Virus record (IMG/VR): IMGVR_UViG_3300013093_000144
Span: 1-33,190 of that record
DNA from: a virus
Direction: 5' to 3' (one strand)
Length of the DNA: 33,190 nt
In this document: positions 8,641-27,120 of the stretch, in pieces
Layout of the letters: each line of letters opens with the position of its first letter
Position numbering within the stretch: the stretch's first letter is position 1
Notes under the pieces: generated by a model
The model's database searches: none
Told to the model about the DNA's origin: nothing
Seen by the model: the letters and a program-made list of their open reading frames with translations, nothing else
Position numbers and translations under genes: made by a program

Positions 8641-9326
8641 GCTAATTTGATTCCAAAGTTATAGGTAGCATCATGGATGGCCTGCACACGATCCATTGAT
8701 GTATCATAATCAGGATTAGGTGTGACCCCATCACTTAGATATGGATTGAGTCCACCATTCCAACTGCTACCATTAGTATGACGTCCTCCTGTGCGATTCT
8801 CTAATACTGTCTTATAACTAGAACAGTTCAATTGAAGTGTAAATGTATCAACTTCTGCTTGACGATCTTCTTTGATAGTATAAGAAGTAACGATACCTGT
8901 ATAACGTAATTCTGGTGTTTCAATTAGGTTATAGTTAGTGTCATAGAATCCACGGAAAACTTCAATCTGCGCCCCTTTAAGTCCTGAGTGGAAGTTTGTA
9001 CCTGTTGAATTTTGTCCTGCTTGTAGGATATCTTTGATCTTAGTTGGATCAATTCCTACCAAACCAATTTGTGTATCATACGCACTGGCTGATAAATCTC
9101 GTTGATGGCTGCTGACACCTACTAGACCACCAAGGCTGGTGAATGTACCTACAGCCTGTGTTGTTCCTGATGAATCTACGATAGTCTCAGTCTTATAACT
9201 GTTAGACATAGCATAGACATTTTGGCTACCATCAGGATTGGTTATTTTGACCTTGATAAATTCAGCATTGTTGATCATGCTGTTGGCAAGGTAATTGGTA
9301 AGTGTTGAACTAAAAATATCAGCCAT
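8637..9326 (-). CDS. Minor tail protein, gpL / DUF2163-like, 229 aa
   Basis: Probable tail-tip structural protein. The segment V-F-R-G-F-Y-D ... L-R-Y-T-G-I-V-T-S-Y-T-I-K-E-D followed by F-T-L-Q-L-N-C-S-S-Y and a late M-D-R-V element is characteristic of the DUF2163 / phage BR0599-type minor tail proteins that precede the tip hub. I assign it by pattern and position, not by a search. It overlaps the preceding gene by one base and the GNAT gene by four (ATGA), so the tip genes are translationally coupled. Confidence 0.65.
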   Translation of the reverse strand: MADIFSSTLTNYLANSMINNAEFIKVKITNPDGSQNVYAMSNSYKTETIVDSSGTTQAVGTFTSLGGLVGVSSHQRDLSASAYDTQIGLVGIDPTKIKDILQAGQNSTGTNFHSGLKGAQIEVFRGFYDTNYNLIETPELRYTGIVTSYTIKEDRQAEVDTFTLQLNCSSYKTVLENRTGGRHTNGSSWNGGLNPYLSDGVTPNPDYDTSMDRVQAIHDATYNFGIKLA

Positions 9327-10045
9327 TATGCACCTCCAGTGTATTCATAGAGACCAAAGTCACTACTCCATTCTAGATAAGCATTATTAGTTCTAGTTGA
9401 TCCTGTGTATTTTGTAGCACCTGGAATCAATTTATAAACTGGCATCTTAGGACAGAACATATAAAATGATACCGCATTACCTACAACAAGACCTTGTCCA
9501 GCAGTAGGACTGTTTACAAAGAAGTTAGGGCGGTTAGTGGTTATTGAAACAGTATTGACTCCGCCAATAACTGTATAAACCGCAGGAACATCATTGACCA
9601 CAGTAAATGGATATGGTGCATTGCCAATCTGTATAAAATCTCCAGCACGGAATAGATACTTGCCTGTAGTCCATGTGCCCGCTATGGCAGGTACGTTTTG
9701 TATGACTAAGGTGCTACCACTAAAACTGGTAACAGTCAGTGCTGAAATCTGAGCGGCTGTCATATCACCTTGATAAGAACAGATCCAACTTAGATTAGGA
9801 TTGTTTGAAAATGTGATCACCTGTGGATAACGACTGTCCAAGTAGTCAATCTGTTCAATTAGATCTCTATAGTCATTATATGGTAATGCTGCTTTCATTG
9901 ATACGTTAATGCGCCAAGGATTGCGTGTTGGGGTTTGACTGACCTTAGCAACCTCAGAGCGTGTGTATTGTACGCCAACAACCTTACGGCGATCAAACTG
10001 TATGGTTTCAGCATAGTTTAGGATTGTTTGTAAACCGTTTGCCAT
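9326..10045 (-). CDS. Minor tail / distal-tail-like protein, 239 aa
   Basis: First gene after the tape measure, joined to it by a TAATG overlap. The N-terminal half contains R-N-P-W-R-I-N-V-S-M and Y-R-D-L-I-E-Q-I-D-Y-L-D. The centre has a beta-rich F-R-A-G-D-F-I-Q-I-G element, as in distal tail and lambda gpM-type minor tail proteins, where a strand-turn-strand precedes a long insertion. No catalytic motif is seen. The role at the tail tip is inferred from position and this partial resemblance. Confidence 0.6.
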   Translation of the reverse strand: MANGLQTILNYAETIQFDRRKVVGVQYTRSEVAKVSQTPTRNPWRINVSMKAALPYNDYRDLIEQIDYLDSRYPQVITFSNNPNLSWICSYQGDMTAAQISALTVTSFSGSTLVIQNVPAIAGTWTTGKYLFRAGDFIQIGNAPYPFTVVNDVPAVYTVIGGVNTVSITTNRPNFFVNSPTAGQGLVVGNAVSFYMFCPKMPVYKLIPGATKYTGSTRTNNAYLEWSSDFGLYEYTGGA

Positions 10046-12330
10046 TATCTAGTCCTCATTGGTAATTCGCGACGTGCTTGCTCAACCATACCAAACATTG
10101 TCATACGGTTTTCTGCGAATAATTGTGCCACTGACTTAGCATCAACGGCATTGATATTGTAATTGTGTGTGGTTGTGCCACCACCGCCCATCATGTCTGC
10201 TGTGTTAGGAGCATTGATCACTGATGCTGGACCTTTGATTAGTTCAGGACCATTTTCACCAACTAGACCAAATGTTCCGCTAGCGATAGTACCACCTGAA
10301 GCATGTCCACCACCAAATAAACTGGTTAGGCTTCCTAACAGTCCGCCACCTGATGTACTGCTAAACATTGAAAATAATGAACTAGTAGCGGCTTTGATTT
10401 CCATCTTGATTATGTCAGTGATGATCGCATTGGTCAAATCACTGAATTTCATCTTACCACCTGTGGCTAGGCTTTCAAAATAACTTTCCACATTAGTTGA
10501 GAATGACTTGAATAGGTTATCGGCGATCTTAGCACCATTAGTAGCATCATCTTGATACTGTTTAATTGCACCTTGCCAAGCAGTTGAGAAATCACGGCTT
10601 TGTGCGATATTCTTTTTCTCTTGATCAATATTCTTTTGATATGCGGCTGTCAATTCATCAGTGGCCTGTGTTACTTTCTTGATAGCATCTGCTTTAGTAT
10701 CCCAATCGCTACCATAAGTCTTAACGGCTTCTAACTGGATATTCTTGACCGCTTGATCATATTGTTTCTTGAGATTTTCTAATTTCTTCTCATCAGCGGT
10801 CATTCCATATTCTTTATATTCTATTTGTAAATTCTTTAATTGTTCTTGGAATGTAAGTTCTTCTTTGGCAACCGCACGATTAAACTGTGCCTGCATCTGT
10901 GCTTGGGCCAATAGTTTATTCTTTTCAGCGATAACCTCAGATTGATTTTTGTATTCTTTTAATTCATCTTGTAGGATCTTGATTTCGCCTGCATGGCTAA
11001 CTGTGCCACGACTATTAGCCTGTTCTTGGCGTAACTTGGCGATTTGATTTTCAAACTCAAGGACTTTCTTTTGATAAGCAGCATCTGCATCAAACTCTGC
11101 CATCTTGCTGCGTTTAACATCATCAGATGCTCCAACAAGACTACGTTCTAGGTCTAGGCGATCTAAGGCTAACTTGTTAGTCAATTGCATTAGAGCAAAT
11201 TGATTCTTAAGACTTTGTTCTGCACCTGCTTGTGGATTTAGATCCTTTTCACTTAATGCAGGTGTCTTAGGCTTCTTATTATCCTTGCCTGTTTCTTCAT
11301 TATTCTTTTGTGCGGCTTTGGTATTCTTTTCAATAGAATCTGTTAATTGATCAAGACCATATTTGGTAGCCAATGCAGTAGCGGCACCTACTCCTAATTG
11401 GATAGCAAATTTGACCAATGTACCAAGTCCAAATGTTGCGGCATTTTCTGCGGCAACCATAGCCCATATTTCTGCAGTTAATGCTACTACTGCTTCACCA
11501 ATACCTGCTAACATGGTTGCGATTTTAAGTGCGGCAAATGTACCAAATGCCACAGTTAGAGCCACAGCGGCTTCTTTGGCTGATATCAATCCAGTGCCAG
11601 CACCTAGAAGAGGTTCAATCAATCCTAAGAATGCCAATTTAACATCAGTCACGAACTGATTTAATTTCAACATGGCCTGTTGTGCTTTTTCTGCGGCTTC
11701 AGCATTTTCACCTTGTGTGCCTGCTGTTTCATGCAGTTGTTGGCTTAGTTCTGCCCAATTGGTTGTTCTTGCGGCCTTGCCAAATAATTCTTGTGCTAGT
11801 GCGGCACGTTTGGCAGGATCTTCCATAGCGGCTAATGCATCAACCTGTTTCATGAATGCTTCTGATGCATCATGTGTTCTTAGATAATCTGTTGATGTAC
11901 CGACCTGATCCAAAGCGGCACGCAATTTCATGTTACCGTCTGCGGCCTGTTGAGCACCAATTAACATCTTGTTCATCATCGTGGCTACTTTTTCACCACT
12001 TAGGCCTACTGCTCCTGCGGCTGCGTTAATCTCTAACATGGCCTGTGTAGTGATACCAAACTTCTCAGCCATTTCAGTTGCTTGTGCGCCTGCTTCCATG
12101 ACTGATTTAACAAATTCAATAATACCAACACCAATCAAGGCAGAACTCATGCCTTCAATCTTCTTGTTGATACCTTCCATTGATTTGCCTAGGTCATCAA
12201 AGGCCTTGCCCATTTCAGAAGTTTTCTTCTTGGCATTTTCAGCAGTAGCATTGGTAGCAGCGTCTACTTTCTTTAGACTACCTTCATATTGTGTACTATC
12301 AAGTTCAAGGGTGATTTTAATGTCAGCCAT
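10045..12330 (-). CDS. Tail tape measure protein, 761 aa
   Basis: Sets tail length and is probably ejected ahead of the DNA. The N-terminal 60 residues are Lys/Asp-rich and helical. A long hydrophobic Ala/Gly/Val-rich region with membrane-like segments lies at about 225-320. It is followed by highly charged coiled coil (about 360-620). The C-terminus shows the tape-measure hallmark G-L-V-G-E-N-G-P-E-L-I-K-G-P-A (688-702) after a Gly/Ser-rich stretch, as in lambda gpH relatives. At roughly 0.15 nm per residue the tail would be about 110 nm. No lytic transglycosylase or peptidase motif was found. It starts with a TAATG overlap on the 110-residue gene. Confidence 0.93.
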   Translation of the reverse strand: MADIKITLELDSTQYEGSLKKVDAATNATAENAKKKTSEMGKAFDDLGKSMEGINKKIEGMSSALIGVGIIEFVKSVMEAGAQATEMAEKFGITTQAMLEINAAAGAVGLSGEKVATMMNKMLIGAQQAADGNMKLRAALDQVGTSTDYLRTHDASEAFMKQVDALAAMEDPAKRAALAQELFGKAARTTNWAELSQQLHETAGTQGENAEAAEKAQQAMLKLNQFVTDVKLAFLGLIEPLLGAGTGLISAKEAAVALTVAFGTFAALKIATMLAGIGEAVVALTAEIWAMVAAENAATFGLGTLVKFAIQLGVGAATALATKYGLDQLTDSIEKNTKAAQKNNEETGKDNKKPKTPALSEKDLNPQAGAEQSLKNQFALMQLTNKLALDRLDLERSLVGASDDVKRSKMAEFDADAAYQKKVLEFENQIAKLRQEQANSRGTVSHAGEIKILQDELKEYKNQSEVIAEKNKLLAQAQMQAQFNRAVAKEELTFQEQLKNLQIEYKEYGMTADEKKLENLKKQYDQAVKNIQLEAVKTYGSDWDTKADAIKKVTQATDELTAAYQKNIDQEKKNIAQSRDFSTAWQGAIKQYQDDATNGAKIADNLFKSFSTNVESYFESLATGGKMKFSDLTNAIITDIIKMEIKAATSSLFSMFSSTSGGGLLGSLTSLFGGGHASGGTIASGTFGLVGENGPELIKGPASVINAPNTADMMGGGGTTTHNYNINAVDAKSVAQLFAENRMTMFGMVEQARRELPMRTR

Positions 12331-18627: not shown

Positions 18628-20070
18628 TTACATCCAACTTTCGTCAGATTCTGGGAAGAAATTCTGTTTGATCAGGCTATCTATGGTTGGCATACCATCT
18701 ACTCTAGAACGAGCATTAGGATCCATCATGTATTCATGTCCTGGTTCTACGCTCTGTTGGAAGTCTCCATCTAGGTATTCAGGTAGGATAGGTTGTTCAT
18801 GTTGCATTGGAAATAGATAGTGTATGCCGTAGCGTAGTGCATCACCTAGACCATCAATGTGTGCATATTTTACATCTGAATATTTTACCAATTGTTTCCT
18901 AGAACCATCTTCATAGTGATAAGTGTCTAGTGCGTCTAATAGTTTGGTTTCTGTATCGTTGATCAATAATCTACGCTGTGATATGAAAGCATTACTAGAG
19001 TTATCAGTGTCTGAAACTAGAGGATTTGACTTGGCAGTGTTTATGATGCGGAAACCATACTTTTCTAGGATAGTTTGGTCAGTGATACCAAATTGTGAGG
19101 TAGTATCTCTATTAACCTGTGATCCTGAGCGGTCCATGATGCTTTGTATAGGACGATGTGGAAAGTCTGATCTGATCAACTGTGCGATACCTTCTGTGCC
19201 ACAGTCTGGTACTGCATAACTTTTTAGGATTTCTAGACGGCCTGTGGTGCTACGGATATCTCCCACTACCTGTGCTACTATCGCACACATGACCCGTTTG
19301 TTAAAGTCATGGAATGAATATAGGGTCTTGCCACGATCCACTATGCGTTCAGGATGTACAAAATTGCGATTCCATGAATAGTAAAATTGATCCTGCACTG
19401 AACCCCAATCACACAGTAGATCTTTCCTAAATTTAAGTGGACTCAGCAGATACATCTGTTCTTCAACCCATTGTTTAGGCTGTACACGCATGGTCTGCCA
19501 TGTTTTATGCAGATAGATCCAACGATCAGGATGCTGTTGTGCATGTTGGGCCCAATCATAAAACGCATTCTTACCTTCAGGGGTAGAAATCAATATGATA
19601 CGTCCTTGTGCTTGGGTTTCACCTGGGCTAGGTCTGATACGATTGGATAGTTCTTGCAGTGCTTCATCTGTGTATTCTGCGGCTTCATCTGCTACGATCA
19701 ATCCAGCGTTGATACCTTTAAGTCCTGTTTCTGAACTTAGGCAAAATATACGGATACCATTGGGAAATGTGATAGTCTTTGATGAATTGTTGATATCCTT
19801 TTCATCTTCTAATCCCCACATTGAGATACAGCGTTGTTTTAGGTCTTTCCATATGATTCTAGAAATCATAGGTGCTGTAGGTGCCACATAAAGGATATCT
19901 TTACCCTTGTGTATGGCGGGTGTTGTAGCGGCTATGGGTAGGAGTAATGAGGCAAGGAAACTCTTACCTGAACCTACTGGTAAGACAGCGCAGACGTTTT
20001 TATCTGATAGCATGGCTGACCATACTTCTGACTGTGCGCCCCAAAGTGTTATCTTATGCGTATTATTCAT
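18628..20070 (-). CDS. terL: Terminase large subunit, 480 aa
   Basis: ATP-driven DNA packaging motor and nuclease. The ATPase domain shows Walker A V-L-P-V-G-S-G-K-S (29-37), Walker B L-I-V-A-D-E-A (124-130) and coupling motif I-S-T-P-E-G (161-166). The RNase-H-like nuclease domain has acidic positions in F-H-D-F-N (D255), I-M-D-R-S-G (D313) and H-I-D-G-L-G-D-A-L-R-Y (D406, D410). Its start overlaps the end of the small subunit gene by eight bases. All expected motifs are present, so the motor should be functional. The packaging mode (headful or cos) cannot be decided from the protein alone. Confidence 0.95.
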   Translation of the reverse strand: MNNTHKITLWGAQSEVWSAMLSDKNVCAVLPVGSGKSFLASLLLPIAATTPAIHKGKDILYVAPTAPMISRIIWKDLKQRCISMWGLEDEKDINNSSKTITFPNGIRIFCLSSETGLKGINAGLIVADEAAEYTDEALQELSNRIRPSPGETQAQGRIILISTPEGKNAFYDWAQHAQQHPDRWIYLHKTWQTMRVQPKQWVEEQMYLLSPLKFRKDLLCDWGSVQDQFYYSWNRNFVHPERIVDRGKTLYSFHDFNKRVMCAIVAQVVGDIRSTTGRLEILKSYAVPDCGTEGIAQLIRSDFPHRPIQSIMDRSGSQVNRDTTSQFGITDQTILEKYGFRIINTAKSNPLVSDTDNSSNAFISQRRLLINDTETKLLDALDTYHYEDGSRKQLVKYSDVKYAHIDGLGDALRYGIHYLFPMQHEQPILPEYLDGDFQQSVEPGHEYMMDPNARSRVDGMPTIDSLIKQNFFPESDESWM

Positions 20071-20410
20071 TGATTTGGCGGACTTCTGCTTCTACATAGT
20101 CAGGAAGTTCTTGCACACCAAATTGTAGGATTGGAGCCTGTAGGCTTTGTCCATTAGTAGTAATATCTACTTTGTCAGCGATAACCTTGCTTAGGATCAG
20201 TTGATGATATTTGGCCACTAGATGCTTGTCATCATCAAAACGTGCGGCTAGGAAGTCATTGGCTAGGATAACTTCATAAGGTATGCCGTTGTTGGCTGAG
20301 GTAATTGCGGCTAGTATTTCTTTGGCAGATAGTTTATTAGTAGTACCAGCGATCCTACCTGCGCCTGGGCGGGCTCCACCATGTCCATTTGATTGTTTTT
20401 CAAGTTCCAT
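20063..20410 (-). CDS. terS: Terminase small subunit, 115 aa
   Basis: Recognises phage DNA for packaging. The N-terminal G-G-A-R-P-G-A-G-R-I-A-G-T-T-N-K-L-S-A signature (about 11-29) is shared by many small terminases. The rest is helical, with a central L-V-A-K-Y-H-Q-L-I-L-S-K. It lies directly before the large subunit and overlaps it by eight bases. Unlike most genes here it has no visible Shine-Dalgarno sequence. Initiation may therefore depend on the structured leader upstream. No in-frame alternative start close by looks better. Confidence 0.85.
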   Translation of the reverse strand: MELEKQSNGHGGARPGAGRIAGTTNKLSAKEILAAITSANNGIPYEVILANDFLAARFDDDKHLVAKYHQLILSKVIADKVDITTNGQSLQAPILQFGVQELPDYVEAEVRQINE

Positions 20411-20522
20411 AGTGGTATTTAATAGGCAGGGGAGAGATTGGGCTTATATGTGGGGAAAACGGAAAAACCTAACCACAGGCATCCTCTCTAGTCCGTTTAA
20501 CGCCCCTGCAGACTATTTAGAC
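20411..20522 (-). other. Structured non-coding leader of the terminase operon
   Basis: This stretch lies between a terminator and the terminase genes and has no gene. On the minus strand it can fold into a long stem: CCCCTGC (20503..20509) with GCAGGGG (20426..20432), CTCTC (20484..20488) with GAGAG (20432..20436), and TGTGG/CCACA (20449..20453, 20473..20477). A competing pair, AAACGGA/TCCGTTT (20457..20463, 20492..20498), crosses the last one. A late promoter should be here, but I see only a weak TATAAG without a good -35. A packaging-recognition site is also possible. Confidence 0.45.
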
Positions 20523-20558
20523 AAAAAAAATAGCACTGGGACGTCCATCGCAGTGCTA
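20523..20558 (-). terminator. Intrinsic terminator ending the accessory operon
   Basis: On the minus strand TAGCACTG (20551..20558) pairs perfectly with CAGTGCTA (20531..20538) across a 12-base loop and is followed by a run of eight T (20523..20530). This is a textbook rho-independent terminator downstream of the PPK2 gene. The plus strand lacks a T-run, so it works one way. Confidence 0.85.
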
Positions 20559-20671: not shown

Positions 20672-21322
20672 TTATTTGCTCAAAATATATCTGATGGCTT
20701 CTAGTCTGGCTGACTTCTTGTCATTTGAGTCAATCTGTATCCAAGGTGCATAATGGGTGTCTGTTTGTTTGAACATGCGGGTTTTGGCCTGTGTATAATT
20801 GTCCCATAACTGTTGTGCCTGTAGATCTACCATGGACAGTTTGCCTTGACGTAAGGGATTGTCTATCCTACGTGCTAGGCGTTCTTGTTGTGTTTCTTTG
20901 GTGATTGAAAACCAAAATTTAATGATCTTGATTCCTGACTGTGTCCACATCTTTTCCAAGCGGGGACATTCTGATAGGAAACTGTTCATTTGATCTCGGG
21001 TGCAGTAGCCCATGACTGGTTCTACTAGGGCACGGTTATAGTAACTGCGATCCCAAAAGGTAATTTCACCTATGCGGGGAAATTGAGCAATATGTCTTGA
21101 CCAATACCACTGACTGCGTTCTTCTTCTGTGGGCTTGTCTAGGGCCACGATCTTGACTGCTCTAGGGGGTAGATTTTCTGTGGCTGCACGGATAAAACTG
21201 GTCTTGCCAGCCATGTCTCTGCCTTCGCAGATTATGATCCATTGTTCACCCTGTTGCTTGACTCGCTGTTGCCACTGATTAAGTTCTAGATCCAGTTGAT
21301 ACTTTTGATCTTCATAGGACAT
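20672..21322 (-). CDS. ppk2: Polyphosphate kinase 2 (PPK2), 216 aa
   Basis: Transfers phosphate between inorganic polyphosphate and nucleotides, usually making NTPs from NDPs. The PPK2 fold is clear: P-loop E-G-R-D-M-A-G-K-T-S (33-42), K-I-V-A-L-D-K-P-T (57-65), R-S-Q-W-Y-W-S-R-H-I-A-Q-F-P, Walker B region F-W-D-R-S-Y-Y-N-R-A (89-98), V-M-G-Y-C-T, K-F-W-F-S-I (135-140), the lid A-R-R-I-D-N-P-L-R-Q-G-K-L-S (150-163) and A-P-W-I-Q-I-D-S-N-D-K-K-S-A-R-L-E-A-I-R (192-211). The order and single-domain size suggest class I, though it is slightly short. One oddity is Gly in the lid where PPK2 proteins usually have Trp before K-L-S. Last gene of the accessory operon, overlapping the preceding gene by 11 bases, directly before a terminator. 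The family call is secure; nucleotide preference is not. Confidence 0.93.
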   Translation of the reverse strand: MSYEDQKYQLDLELNQWQQRVKQQGEQWIIICEGRDMAGKTSFIRAATENLPPRAVKIVALDKPTEEERSQWYWSRHIAQFPRIGEITFWDRSYYNRALVEPVMGYCTRDQMNSFLSECPRLEKMWTQSGIKIIKFWFSITKETQQERLARRIDNPLRQGKLSMVDLQAQQLWDNYTQAKTRMFKQTDTHYAPWIQIDSNDKKSARLEAIRYILSK

Positions 21323-21746
21323 TTCGGTCTTTAGGAACTTTGATTAGGATATAGTCTTGTGGATTGGCTGTGAGTTCTTCTACAGTGGCTTCTGTCATGC
21401 CCACTTTATGCACCCACGCTTCACGCAGTTCATCTGGTGAATATAGGCTCTGCACGGCATTTTGATTCTGTATCACCCACATCTGTTCCATGGCATTCCA
21501 GCGATCGTTGCCTATGGTTTCTCTGCAGAACATGACTGCATCGCTTGGACTCCAGTTGTTTTCAATCTTACCTTTGGCCATCTTTTCCATGGCATCCATG
21601 ATCTTATAAGTTTCATCTTGTGTAAGATATGGACTCATAGCATACATGATGCGATCTAGGTGCCAAAAACGTGCAGTGGCCTGTGGTGAAATCCTAGTGT
21701 AGTCAGCGAAGACTTGGGTGTTAACGGGTTTTCCGTTTAGTATCAT
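21312..21746 (-). CDS. Hypothetical helical protein upstream of PPK2, 144 aa
   Basis: Not recognised. It is soluble and mainly helical, with aromatic-rich segments (F-W-H-L-D-R-I-M-Y-A-M, W-N-A-M-E-Q-M-W-V-I) and a basic C-terminus. It has a good ribosome-binding site (AAGGATTTAGAG) and its last 11 bases overlap the PPK2 start, so the two are probably co-translated. A partner or regulator of the kinase is possible but only from position. Confidence 0.75.
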   Translation of the reverse strand: MILNGKPVNTQVFADYTRISPQATARFWHLDRIMYAMSPYLTQDETYKIMDAMEKMAKGKIENNWSPSDAVMFCRETIGNDRWNAMEQMWVIQNQNAVQSLYSPDELREAWVHKVGMTEATVEELTANPQDYILIKVPKDRNVL

Positions 21747-21768: not shown

Positions 21769-21963
21769 TCAAGCGTAGGTGTTGGTTGCGTCACCGCGGC
21801 TATCGTGTACTATCTGATTCTGTTGATTATAGATCTTAGCGTGGCTAGATCCGTTCAAAAAATGCTTTAGGTATTCATGGGCTTGTTCTAAACTGGCATG
21901 GAATTCATCGCGGCTGGTTAGTGTGCCACCATCCCATGAATATATTCTAGTCATATGTCGCAT
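21769..21963 (-). CDS. Small hypothetical protein, 64 aa
   Basis: Starts in a TAATG overlap with the Dps-like gene; a second in-frame ATG (residue 4) is also possible. Content is hydrophilic with D-E-F-H-A-S-L-E-Q-A-H-E-Y-L-K-H-F-L as one amphipathic helix. No motif, signal or membrane segment. Function unknown. Confidence 0.65.
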   Translation of the reverse strand: MRHMTRIYSWDGGTLTSRDEFHASLEQAHEYLKHFLNGSSHAKIYNQQNQIVHDSRGDATNTYA

Positions 21964-22442
21964 TAGATCTTCTCATCGTTGTCTTCTTCACCAACAGCCT
22001 TAGCATGCCAGATCCAATGATCTAATAGTTGTATGTAATTGGTTATAATTGAAGCGATACCAAATTGTTCAACATCGTGTGCTCGCTTGTGTGCTTTTAC
22101 AGCACGATCGCGGACTGTGTTAAAGTCTTTGACCAATTGGCTATTGATATCTTCTACATTAGGAACTTCAGTAGCGTCTTTGATCTCTGTCAATTCTTGG
22201 ATGCGTTCTATTGATGCTGGAGGAGTTTCATCCAAATAGCGTATAGTATGTCCAATCTTGTGATTAGAACGCATGATGTGCTTGGCTACTTTCTTGTATT
22301 GTCTGTGCGTGAATATACCAATTGGGCCTTCAGCACCTAGTGAGAAACCTTCTACTTTAGCATGTAGACTGATATTATCAGCCCAAAGTTTTTTCAAATG
22401 GTCTACTAGTTTATCTTCTAATTGTGGATCTATATCCGCCAT
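21963..22442 (-). CDS. Dps/ferritin-like four-helix protein, 159 aa
   Basis: The layout follows Dps-type ferritins. Helix A has L-V-D-H-L-K-K-L-W-A-D-N-I-S-L-H (12-27), then a G-F-S-L-G-A-E-G-P turn. Helix B is Y-K-K-V-A-K-H-I-M (49-57), leading into T-I-R-Y-L-D-E-T-P-P-A-S (66-77). I-Q-E-L-T-E-I-K-D (81-89) matches the short mid helix, then come helix C and a final helix D, G-I-A-S-I-I-T-N-Y-I-Q-L-L-D-H-W-I-W-H (128-146). Dps proteins form 12-mers that store iron and shield DNA. The usual ferroxidase H-x(11)-H spacing is not obvious, so iron oxidation may be lost. This is a pattern-based call. SD is GAGGAAATAAAGATATG-like. Confidence 0.62.
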   Translation of the reverse strand: MADIDPQLEDKLVDHLKKLWADNISLHAKVEGFSLGAEGPIGIFTHRQYKKVAKHIMRSNHKIGHTIRYLDETPPASIERIQELTEIKDATEVPNVEDINSQLVKDFNTVRDRAVKAHKRAHDVEQFGIASIITNYIQLLDHWIWHAKAVGEEDNDEKI

Positions 22443-22446
22443 ATCT

Positions 22447-22518
22447 TTATTTCCTCTTTTTAGGTGGTTTGGGTCTTGGTGCTTTGTAAGGGTTCTTAGG
22501 CCAATCGTATGCCATCAT
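22447..22518 (-). CDS. Possible 23-aa basic micropeptide
   Basis: Short frame starting ATG ATG at 22513..22518, with its first codon sharing an ATGA overlap with the stop of the four-cysteine gene, and ending TAA at 22447..22449. It encodes MMAYDWPKNPY followed by a Lys/Pro/Arg-rich tail ending P-P-K-K-R-K. The coupled start and the fact that it fills the gap to the next gene's ribosome-binding site favour it being real. Length alone cannot establish this. Confidence 0.45.
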   Translation of the reverse strand: MMAYDWPKNPYKAPRPKPPKKRK

Positions 22519-22721
22519 TTCGCTCCCACCCATTTCTTGCACCAATAGTAATTACGAACAGGTGCATCAAATAGGTCGCAATATCCTGAAGCATAATAAC
22601 GACAGTTACCACAGTTTTCACCTGCAGGTACCATGGGCATGTCTGATGGTTGATAAGCATCTGGTAGGCTAGTGGGTATCAGACTACCGTCTGGATATCT
22701 AGAAGGTCTAGTATAAGCCAT
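22515..22721 (-). CDS. HiPIP-like four-cysteine protein, 68 aa
   Basis: Four cysteines, C37-x2-C40-x7-C48-x12-C61, in the context C-G-N-C-R-Y-Y ... Y-C-D-L-F-D-A-P-V ... Y-W-C-K-K-W. This is close to the C-terminal cluster-binding pattern of high-potential iron-sulfur proteins (C-x2-C, C, then W-C-x-x-W), except that Tyr replaces the usual Gly before W-C. There is no export signal, whereas bacterial HiPIPs are usually periplasmic. A 4Fe-4S cluster or a structural zinc site is possible. The start overlaps the upstream 55-residue gene (TAATG). Confidence 0.65.
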   Translation of the reverse strand: MAYTRPSRYPDGSLIPTSLPDAYQPSDMPMVPAGENCGNCRYYASGYCDLFDAPVRNYYWCKKWVGAK

Positions 22722-23141: not shown

Positions 23142-23528
23142 TTACAATTCAAACCCTACTTGGAACTTAATAGCGGTGAATTCTGGGAAATATGAAGCCA
23201 TAATCACGCTGATTACTTCAATGGCTTCCATTTGCTTCTTGGTCAGATCACGCTGTCCACCAAATGTTAGGTTTTCTAGCATACCTGAGACAAAACTGGC
23301 GATTGAGTTAGGACCTTCTTTGCCTTTGGGCAAATTGGTGTTGCGTTCATGTAGATCTGTGCGTAGGATACGGATATCTCTATCACGGCTAGTGTCTAGT
23401 TCATTGATACGCAACAACCAACGCAGGAACTGTTCCTGTGTCCAACTCATATCATTGATATCAATTTCCACATATTCTGTGCGAGCATGTGTGATCTTAG
23501 GTATGTATTTGATTATTCTTTCATTCAT
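23142..23528 (-). CDS. Hypothetical protein, 128 aa
   Basis: Not recognised. Mixed charged protein with I-D-I-N-D-M-S-W-T-Q-E-Q-F-L-R-W-L-L-R-I near the N-terminus and a hydrophobic helix A-I-E-V-I-S-V-I-M-A-S-Y-F near the C-terminus, too short and polar-flanked for a confident membrane span. It starts in an ATGA overlap with the duplicated HNH-like gene, so expression is coupled. Confidence 0.72.
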   Translation of the reverse strand: MNERIIKYIPKITHARTEYVEIDINDMSWTQEQFLRWLLRINELDTSRDRDIRILRTDLHERNTNLPKGKEGPNSIASFVSGMLENLTFGGQRDLTKKQMEAIEVISVIMASYFPEFTAIKFQVGFEL

Positions 23529-24127
23529 TTTGTTTTCCTCAAGTTTACTAGTTGACGGAAAGCACTGGCACGTTGCAGTTGCTCACGTCTGGTTACGATA
23601 ATAACATTGTCTAGGGTCCAAGCACCTTCTGGATCTTCACGTGTCATGGCCAAGTTATCAGCATGGCGACCTCGTTGTGCCCAAAGTTCATCTGGCCATA
23701 TGGTTTTCCAATCTTCAAATGTGATATCACATTCTTCATCACGGAAAGCGCATTGTGCTTTGAATCTCAACCAAGGTTCATATTTCTTATGCTGTATGGG
23801 ATCTTTTTCTATCCATACCTGTGGACGTGGACGACCATAACTTCTGCTGGGTATGCCTAGATTGCTCTTGCCCTGTGTGGTGGCCATGATGTTGCCTAGT
23901 TCAAATGGCCGGTTGCGATCAATCCTAGTCATGCACAAGTATTCAGCCAACATAGGGCCTGTGTGCCTAACGTTTTTTTCTACACCCTGTGCTAGCCACC
24001 AAGCATACCAATCTTCAAATGTGATCTTGAATTCATTACCAGCGGCTATCTGGCGCTTGCGATTATCGTTATATCTGCGTTTGGCCCACTTTAATGGGTT
24101 ACGTGGCCTTCCTCTAAGTTCTTCCAT
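23525..24127 (-). CDS. HNH-like protein with an internal tandem duplication, 200 aa
   Basis: Two related halves lie 100 residues apart. I-T-F-E-D-W occurs at 35-40 and again at 135-140, each followed about 30 residues later by C/A-M-T-R-I/E-D and a N-I-M-A-T-T / N-V-I-I-V-T strand. The L-x-M-T-R-x-D-x(6-8)-N-x-x-x-x-T element resembles the second half of phage HNH or AP2-like DNA-binding modules. The canonical catalytic His-Asn-His and zinc cysteines are not evident, so nuclease activity is doubtful. The N-terminus is very basic. SD GAGGAT precedes the ATG. Confidence 0.6.
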   Translation of the reverse strand: MEELRGRPRNPLKWAKRRYNDNRKRQIAAGNEFKITFEDWYAWWLAQGVEKNVRHTGPMLAEYLCMTRIDRNRPFELGNIMATTQGKSNLGIPSRSYGRPRPQVWIEKDPIQHKKYEPWLRFKAQCAFRDEECDITFEDWKTIWPDELWAQRGRHADNLAMTREDPEGAWTLDNVIIVTRREQLQRASAFRQLVNLRKTK

Positions 24128-26070: not shown

Positions 26071-27120
26071 TTATTTAGAATAGTATTCTAAATTGGATTG
26101 TAATCGTGGATTATTTGGATCATTAGCCAGAGCCAACTTGCCATATTCAAGTGCTAGGTCTCGTTGTCCTAGATGATAAGCGGCGATAGCACCTAGGTCA
26201 TAGGGCTTCCAAGTCCAGTTGTCGTGGACTTCTGTATAGACCCATTCACGGTCAGTGATTTCTAGTGTTTGTTTTACTGCTTCAAGGCATTCACGCCACA
26301 TGCTGTTCCTATAAAAGAAATCAGCCATGTCCATATATGGTTCGCGGACTTTTGGTGCTTCCTTGATAGCCATGCGATAGTATCTTAGACTATCAAATTT
26401 AGGACCTAGATTTTCCATGCACTTGGCCTGCACACGTCTGGCATAACAGCGTTCGTGGTTCCAAGTAGCACCTGGTAAATTCAAATAGCGTTCGCACTCA
26501 TCGAAGGCTGCTTGCCAATGTTGATAAAAACTCAATTCGCGAGCATAGTAAAATGCGTTGCGGGGATTATAGGGATCTAATTTAGTATCAGCGGCCAGTA
26601 GGTCTAAGTATTGTCCGCGGCTCTTTGTGGGATCTGGTTTATGGACTATCAACAGTTGATCTGTTTCTGCCCAATATTCTGTGATGCGGCTGTCTGGATA
26701 AAGTGCTTCATGGCACATGCTACGCCAACTATAGCCTGTGCGGCTGTGTATCTTGTCACCGTAGAATATTAGATTGTTGCTCCAATCAAAACGATAACGC
26801 ATACGTGTGGTATGGTTTTTCCATTCACGTTCTATCACTTCGCGCCAGCCTGGTTGTAGTTCTTCGTCTAGATCTAGTGAAATACAGACATCTACGTCAC
26901 TAGGTATTAAACTTAGTGCGGTGTTCCTAGCGACGTCAAAACGCCATGGTTTGACGCTGATATTGAACACTTCTGCGCCACTTTGACGCAATAATTGCAC
27001 CGTTTTGTCAGTTGATCCTGTGTCACATACTATGACCTCATCTGCGTCAAGACATGACTTCATAAAACGGCGAACAAATTTCTCCTCATTTTTGGAGATG
27101 GCATATATACAAATCTTCAT
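26071..27120 (-). CDS. Family 2 glycosyltransferase with C-terminal TPR-like repeats, 349 aa
   Basis: Probably transfers a sugar from a nucleotide-sugar donor to a phage or host acceptor. The GT-A domain shows I-S-K-N-E-E-K-F (8-15), V-C-D-T-G-S-T-D-K-T (31-40) and the metal-binding S-L-D-L-D-E-E-L (81-88). From about residue 180 there are helical hairpin repeats (N-A-F-Y-Y-A-R-E-L, Y-Y-R-M-A-I-K-E-A-P, A-L-E-Y-G-K-L-A-L-A-N-D-P-N-N-P) of TPR type. This GT2-TPR arrangement is common in environmental phages. Being next to the fibre genes, glycosylation of a virion protein or of the host surface is plausible. No membrane segment, so cytoplasmic. Confidence 0.88.
   Translation of the reverse strand: MKICIYAISKNEEKFVRRFMKSCLDADEVIVCDTGSTDKTVQLLRQSGAEVFNISVKPWRFDVARNTALSLIPSDVDVCISLDLDEELQPGWREVIEREWKNHTTRMRYRFDWSNNLIFYGDKIHSRTGYSWRSMCHEALYPDSRITEYWAETDQLLIVHKPDPTKSRGQYLDLLAADTKLDPYNPRNAFYYARELSFYQHWQAAFDECERYLNLPGATWNHERCYARRVQAKCMENLGPKFDSLRYYRMAIKEAPKVREPYMDMADFFYRNSMWRECLEAVKQTLEITDREWVYTEVHDNWTWKPYDLGAIAAYHLGQRDLALEYGKLALANDPNNPRLQSNLEYYSK

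Follow-up and report, generated by a model that had tools for sequence, protein, structure and literature searches.

What would a phage gain from a polyphosphate kinase of its own? The question is raised by a gene at positions 20672..21322 on the minus strand of the window (the whole stretch of DNA analysed here, a linear IMG/VR contig of 33,190 bases, possibly incomplete). It encodes a 216 aa protein which Pfam (PF03976), PDB and AlphaFold2 matches identify as a polyphosphate kinase 2 (PPK2) of the class I type. Viral ppk2 genes as such are already known and are counted among viral auxiliary metabolic genes in metagenome surveys (PMC13188868, PMC9636769), one of which reports ppk2 in transcriptionally active viruses (PMC13188868). 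The available portions of these surveys give gene counts only and describe neither the clade, the lid residue and the fixed site nor the allele exchange that are considered below. No characterised phage PPK2 was found in a literature search that extended largely to papers available without subscription. New here are a clade of viral enzymes with a glycine in the lid, a regained P-loop motif, a fixed genomic site and a putative allele swap.

The preliminary description had assigned the protein to PPK2 from the sequence alone, and the PF03976 profile bears this out over practically the whole protein (residues 2-215, E 9.2e-74, 248.3 bits against a cut-off of 22.3). The best NCBIfam model is TIGR03707 (PPK2_P_aer); the score of 279.2 bits is below the equivalog cut-off of 301.8 bits and the protein is thus not filed as a PPK2_P_aer equivalog. 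The closest solved structures in a PDB sequence search are the class I PPK2s of F. tularensis (FtPPK2; 5ll0, E 2.4e-68) and S. meliloti. An AlphaFold2 model built from 13 phage sequences (pLDDT 82.9) has the three-layer alpha/beta/alpha fold with a helical lid, and matches FtPPK2 with a Z score of 27.8 over 214 residues (5llb) and a TM score of 0.91 (5ll0), so that structure prediction, one of the checks proposed at the outset, points to the same family. Both the sequence and the predicted fold are nearest to class I enzymes.

Placement among thymidylate or other P-loop kinases, which had been named in advance as the outcome that would speak against PPK2, was not observed. Phage thymidylate kinases (phrog_761) share the P-loop kinase fold with the window protein, but their profile matches it only weakly (E 0.0054), far behind that of PPK2, and the dTMP kinase structures reach Z scores of at most 12.3 compared to 27.8 for PPK2, a difference that favours PPK2; profile and fold together also rule out identity with another P-loop kinase. 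The gene starts with ATG and has no longer N-terminal frame (the stop-to-stop frame is 223 codons), and the protein is a minimal core lacking an N- or C-terminal extension.

Active site and the glycine-lid clade

The window protein aligns with FtPPK2 without gaps at an offset of 26 residues. All the signature segments named in the preliminary description were located, namely E-G-R-D-M-A-G-K-T (33-41), F-W-D-R-S-Y-Y-N-R-A (89-98), K-F-W-F-S (135-139), the lid segment L-R-Q-G-K-L-S (157-163) and S-N-D-K-K-S-A-R-L-E-A-I-R (199-211), and these include the family motifs Walker A (GxxxxGK) with the catalytic Asp, Walker B (DRS) and the lid RxxxR. On the minus strand, the Walker A P-loop GRDMAGKT (residues 34-41) is encoded at 21200..21223, Walker B DRSYYNR (residues 91-97, containing D91, R92 and Asn96) at 21032..21052, and the lid, from R148 through R152 to PLRQGKLS (residues 148-163), at 20834..20881.

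All catalytic residues checked are present: D36, K40, D91 and R92 correspond to D62, K66, D117 and R118 of FtPPK2, and R148, R152, K202, K203 and R206 to R174, R178, K228, K229 and R232, positions that are catalytic or bind polyphosphate (PMC4748334, PMC8776046). Alanine mutants of FtPPK2 K66, R118 and R178 lose polyphosphate binding and activity (PMC8776046). The residue following Walker B is Asn in class I, Gly in class II and Glu in class III (PMC8776046), and Asn96 in DRSYYNRA is accordingly the class I (NDP kinase) signature. There are three departures from FtPPK2: Gly160 in place of W186 (codon 20843-20845), Thr41 in place of the Gly that follows the P-loop lysine, and Asn50 in place of H76. 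The lid glycine noted in the preliminary description is therefore real, G160 aligning with W186 without a gap. The fold is alike over the whole protein in FtPPK2 (4YEG, 5LL0, 5LLB; about 50% identity) and in S. meliloti SMc02148 (3CZQ, 6DZG; Z 25.5, about 45% identity). Both enzymes share with the phage protein the catalytic Asp, Lys and Arg residues, the class I Asn and the channel residues, and differ from it in the lid, in having GKG rather than GKT and His76 rather than Asn, and in possessing the N-terminal extension and C-terminal tail.

Relatives were gathered in an IMG/VR scan with a PPK2 alignment, from which the best 80 of 335 were used. Across the viral loci gathered, the lid position is Gly in 46 (duplicates included) and aromatic in 48. 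The best 80 cellular sequences of one genome scan have Trp (70), Tyr (9) or Phe (1), and the residue is likewise aromatic in the 10 best sequences from 369 genomes of the class to which the Rhodoferax hit belongs, so that Gly occurs in none of the 90 closest cellular PPK2s examined, as ranked by similarity; rare cellular Gly-lid enzymes may exist beyond this sample. The window protein thus lacks the aromatic lid residue that is a feature of cellular class I enzymes.

In a maximum-likelihood tree of the phage and bacterial proteins, a comparison suggested in the preliminary description, the 29 distinct Gly-lid sequences, including the window PPK2, form a single group with 100/100 support, a stem of 0.49 changes per site and no cellular members, and this group is retained (support 99) when the lid and P-loop columns are left out of the alignment. 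The glycine lid thus marks a virus-only branch of compact PPK2s. Full-length Gly-lid proteins span 216-268 aa, and the stretch ahead of the core has a median length of 19 residues compared to 62 in the cellular set; the C-terminal tail is missing in the window protein and in its relatives L002 and L003, and consists of five residues in L104. Within the clade, the relatives of the window PPK2 have regained the canonical GK[ST] P-loop, with Thr in the window protein at the position after the lysine where cellular PPK2s have Gly; a single change within the clade suffices to account for GK[ST] in place of GKG. Pairwise comparison of the window gene and its two nearest relatives gives dN/dS values of 0.11-0.19, and the range for the clade is 0.05-0.24, which indicates that the gene is maintained in functional form by purifying selection. 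Other members of the clade belong to different phages and have genes for DNA polymerase, helicase and primase around them, consistent with a role in nucleotide supply.

The aromatic-lid PPK2s of viral or viral-labelled contigs belong to the same family, and 46 of the 48 have the class I Asn. They are mostly larger (280-405 aa), with Trp, Tyr or Phe in the lid, and include proteins from phages with very large genomes (LR756501, 735 kb); in the tree, they are either interleaved with bacterial sequences or form a separate viral clade. The PPK2 matches examined from this part of the family in 50,697 named phage records (L005, L006, L007 and L009) have a Trp lid. The first three (KR093630.1, MT835589.1 and MT835605.1) are unannotated PPK2s in phage-labelled records, and the neighbours in the former two appear, by eye, to be bacterial housekeeping genes. 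All three seem to be bacterial DNA filed under phage names, which would inflate counts of viral PPK2.

A fixed genomic site and a putative exchange of alleles

The characterization of the source as a small siphophage fits the gene content, which includes a portal, a scaffold, a major head protein, a lambda-type tape measure and tail proteins, with all recognisable phage genes on the minus strand. The phage is probably a freshwater one, judging from the accompanying contigs. Upstream of PPK2 is an ORF of 144 aa with no assigned function (ORF144, 21312..21746, minus strand), a conserved neighbour in the relatives, the end of which shares 11 nt with the beginning of PPK2, an arrangement that suggests translational coupling. 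Directly after PPK2 comes a probable intrinsic terminator (20522..20558, minus strand) that consists of an 11-pair stem at 20531-20558 and a T-run behind it, with a hairpin fold of -13.6 kcal/mol (z -3.39). Beyond it, also on the minus strand, are the genes for the probable terminase small subunit (TerS, 20063..20410), which is conserved in the lineage and precedes the large subunit but has weak PHROG support, and for the large subunit itself (TerL, 18628..20070; phrog_2, E 2.7e-36). PPK2 thus lies between phage genes, ORF144 and the terminase subunits, as expected of a viral auxiliary metabolic gene. On the far side of ORF144 is a gene for a ferritin-like or Dps-like protein (21963..22442, minus strand; PF00210, E 5.1e-07; phrog_3636, E 8.1e-14; supported by synteny). 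No other nucleotide-metabolism gene was recognised adjoining PPK2, and a sigma-70 scan around it found no more sites than in shuffled sequences.

The order Dps-like, ORF144, PPK2, TerS, TerL is found, as far as the contigs extend, in L002, L003, L013, L015, L029, L099 and L104, whereas in L097 and L101 the flanking genes are present and PPK2 is absent. PPK2 is therefore optional in this phage lineage, and its site is fixed. Replacement by another kinase was considered, and only small ORFs are present at the site in L097 and L101. Between the window and L002, PPK2 (82% identity) and TerL (84%) are much more similar than ORF144 (39%), TerS (46%) and the Dps-like protein (52%).

Two relatives from two IMG metagenomes, L002 (IMGVR 3300025785_000128, PPK2 at 10001-10651) and L003 (IMGVR 3300025426_000212, PPK2 at 8805-9455), differ at 159 places in an alignment of 14.5 kb, of which 154 fall within the 651 positions of PPK2 and about 5 in the 13.8 kb outside it. 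Within the gene, the first difference is at nucleotide 28 and the last some 25 nt short of the stop codon, and the changes are spread over the gene, involve all base types and are distributed 44/29/81 over the three codon positions. The third-position bias and the range of base types point to two long-separated alleles brought together by homologous recombination, rather than to targeted mutagenesis, and the same features, with their gene-wide spread, exclude a diversity-generating retroelement. The pattern is that expected of an allele swap between otherwise near-identical phages; an assembly chimera is a possible source of the difference. General hypervariability of PPK2 was rejected because, in the other overlapping close pairs, the gene diverges like its flanks or less, and at most twofold more.

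Proposed function and alternatives

The protein is probably an active, compact class I PPK2 of the phage's own that produces NTPs from NDPs by means of host polyphosphate in the course of infection; activity, direction, timing of expression, host and benefit are what we infer. Given the conserved residues, class I chemistry with NDP and polyphosphate is most likely, that is, nucleophilic attack of the terminal phosphate of the NDP on the polyphosphate end across a Mg2+ bridge (PMC8776046). Host polyphosphate would bind in the basic channel, and its terminal phosphate would be passed to nucleoside diphosphates (ADP, GDP and perhaps dNDPs); the resulting NTPs would feed genome replication and virion building as host respiration falters. 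The gene is the last of an apparent operon, closed by the probable terminator ahead of the packaging genes, and is optional cargo whose alleles would pass from phage to phage through recombination. If the enzyme works in this way, phages can draw nucleotides directly from host polyphosphate, linking infection to the bacterial phosphorus store.

The sequence does not tell in which direction the reaction runs, and the enzyme might instead make polyphosphate from NTPs, which could serve infected cells as, for example, a phosphate reserve, chaperone or counter-ion store. Synthesis is the main direction of some class I enzymes, and those of C. glutamicum and P. aeruginosa (PA2428) make polyphosphate strongly (PMC8776046); one survey takes viral ppk genes as a sign of polyphosphate accumulation (PMC13188868). 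We nevertheless consider this unlikely, given that NTP formation is the favoured direction in most class I enzymes (PMC8776046) and that long-term storage would presumably be of little gain to a lytic phage. Alternatively, the main benefit might be removal of polyphosphate, blunting polyphosphate-dependent host stress responses and proteolysis (polyphosphate-stimulated Lon), with the gain in NTPs secondary. Optional, exchangeable genes with diverging alleles, as in the L002/L003 pair, would be typical of genes engaged in host conflict. However, in the other close pairs PPK2 evolves about as fast as its flanks or slower, and a direct link between phage infection and polyphosphate defence was not found in the literature searched, so this explanation appears improbable.

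Nucleotide supply from polyphosphate is also to be weighed against a shift of the kinase to an ordinary nucleotide donor, a notion prompted by the regained GK[ST], the loss of the lid aromatic residue and terminal extensions, and the fold held in common with dTMP kinases. Such a shift is very unlikely because R148, R152, K202 and R206, the basic residues of the polyphosphate channel, are retained in all 46 Gly-lid viral loci. Finally, the optional presence of PPK2 and the interleaving of aromatic-lid viral and bacterial sequences might bring to mind a host gene picked up recently and by accident, devoid of phage function. This is scarcely credible in view of the virus-only clade with its long stem, a best cellular match of only about 53% among the matches listed, purifying selection and the fixed syntenic site; the gene would belong to the phage.

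The preliminary description had proposed that the lid Gly may alter substrate choice, and the finding that it marks a whole viral clade lends weight to the idea that the residue matters. The lid contacts the N-terminal extension in the S. meliloti enzyme (PMC4748334) and the C-terminal clamp helix in a class III PPK2 (PMC12257356), and the loss of terminal extensions and of the lid aromatic in the same enzymes may perhaps be linked. It is conceivable, although we regard it as doubtful, that the Gly-lid PPK2s form an enzyme class specialised to phages, in which these losses and, in this lineage, the restored GK[ST] have altered the direction of the reaction or the choice of substrate (dNDPs or pyrimidine NDPs, for example), with alleles traded to suit hosts or evade inhibition. 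The presence of ppk2 on viral contigs thereby becomes a testable matter, with a virus-only branch and a discrete substitution in the lid; the window protein is small enough to express, and a natural allele pair exists in nearly identical phages. Those who use PPK2 for ATP regeneration might also take an interest in this minimal form of 216 residues.

Other features of the window

There is no tRNA in the window that might serve as a clue to the host, nor any Rfam RNA, and the relatives of the terminase among named phages are all distant (below 60%, the best rows at about 27%). The gene at 22515-22721 (minus strand) encodes a 68-residue protein with four cysteines that resembles high-potential iron-sulfur proteins (PF01355, E 0.0018, below the cut-off; PioC, E 0.046), and its relative in L097 matches equally; a phage-borne electron carrier, if this is one, would be unusual. 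The product of 23525-24127 (minus strand) weakly matches HNH endonucleases and a 'decoy of host sigma70' family, and small genes related to it are located near PPK2 in L002 and L003. A family 2 glycosyltransferase (26071-27120, minus strand; phrog_13126, E 8.8e-94) is encoded near collagen-like tail fibre genes.
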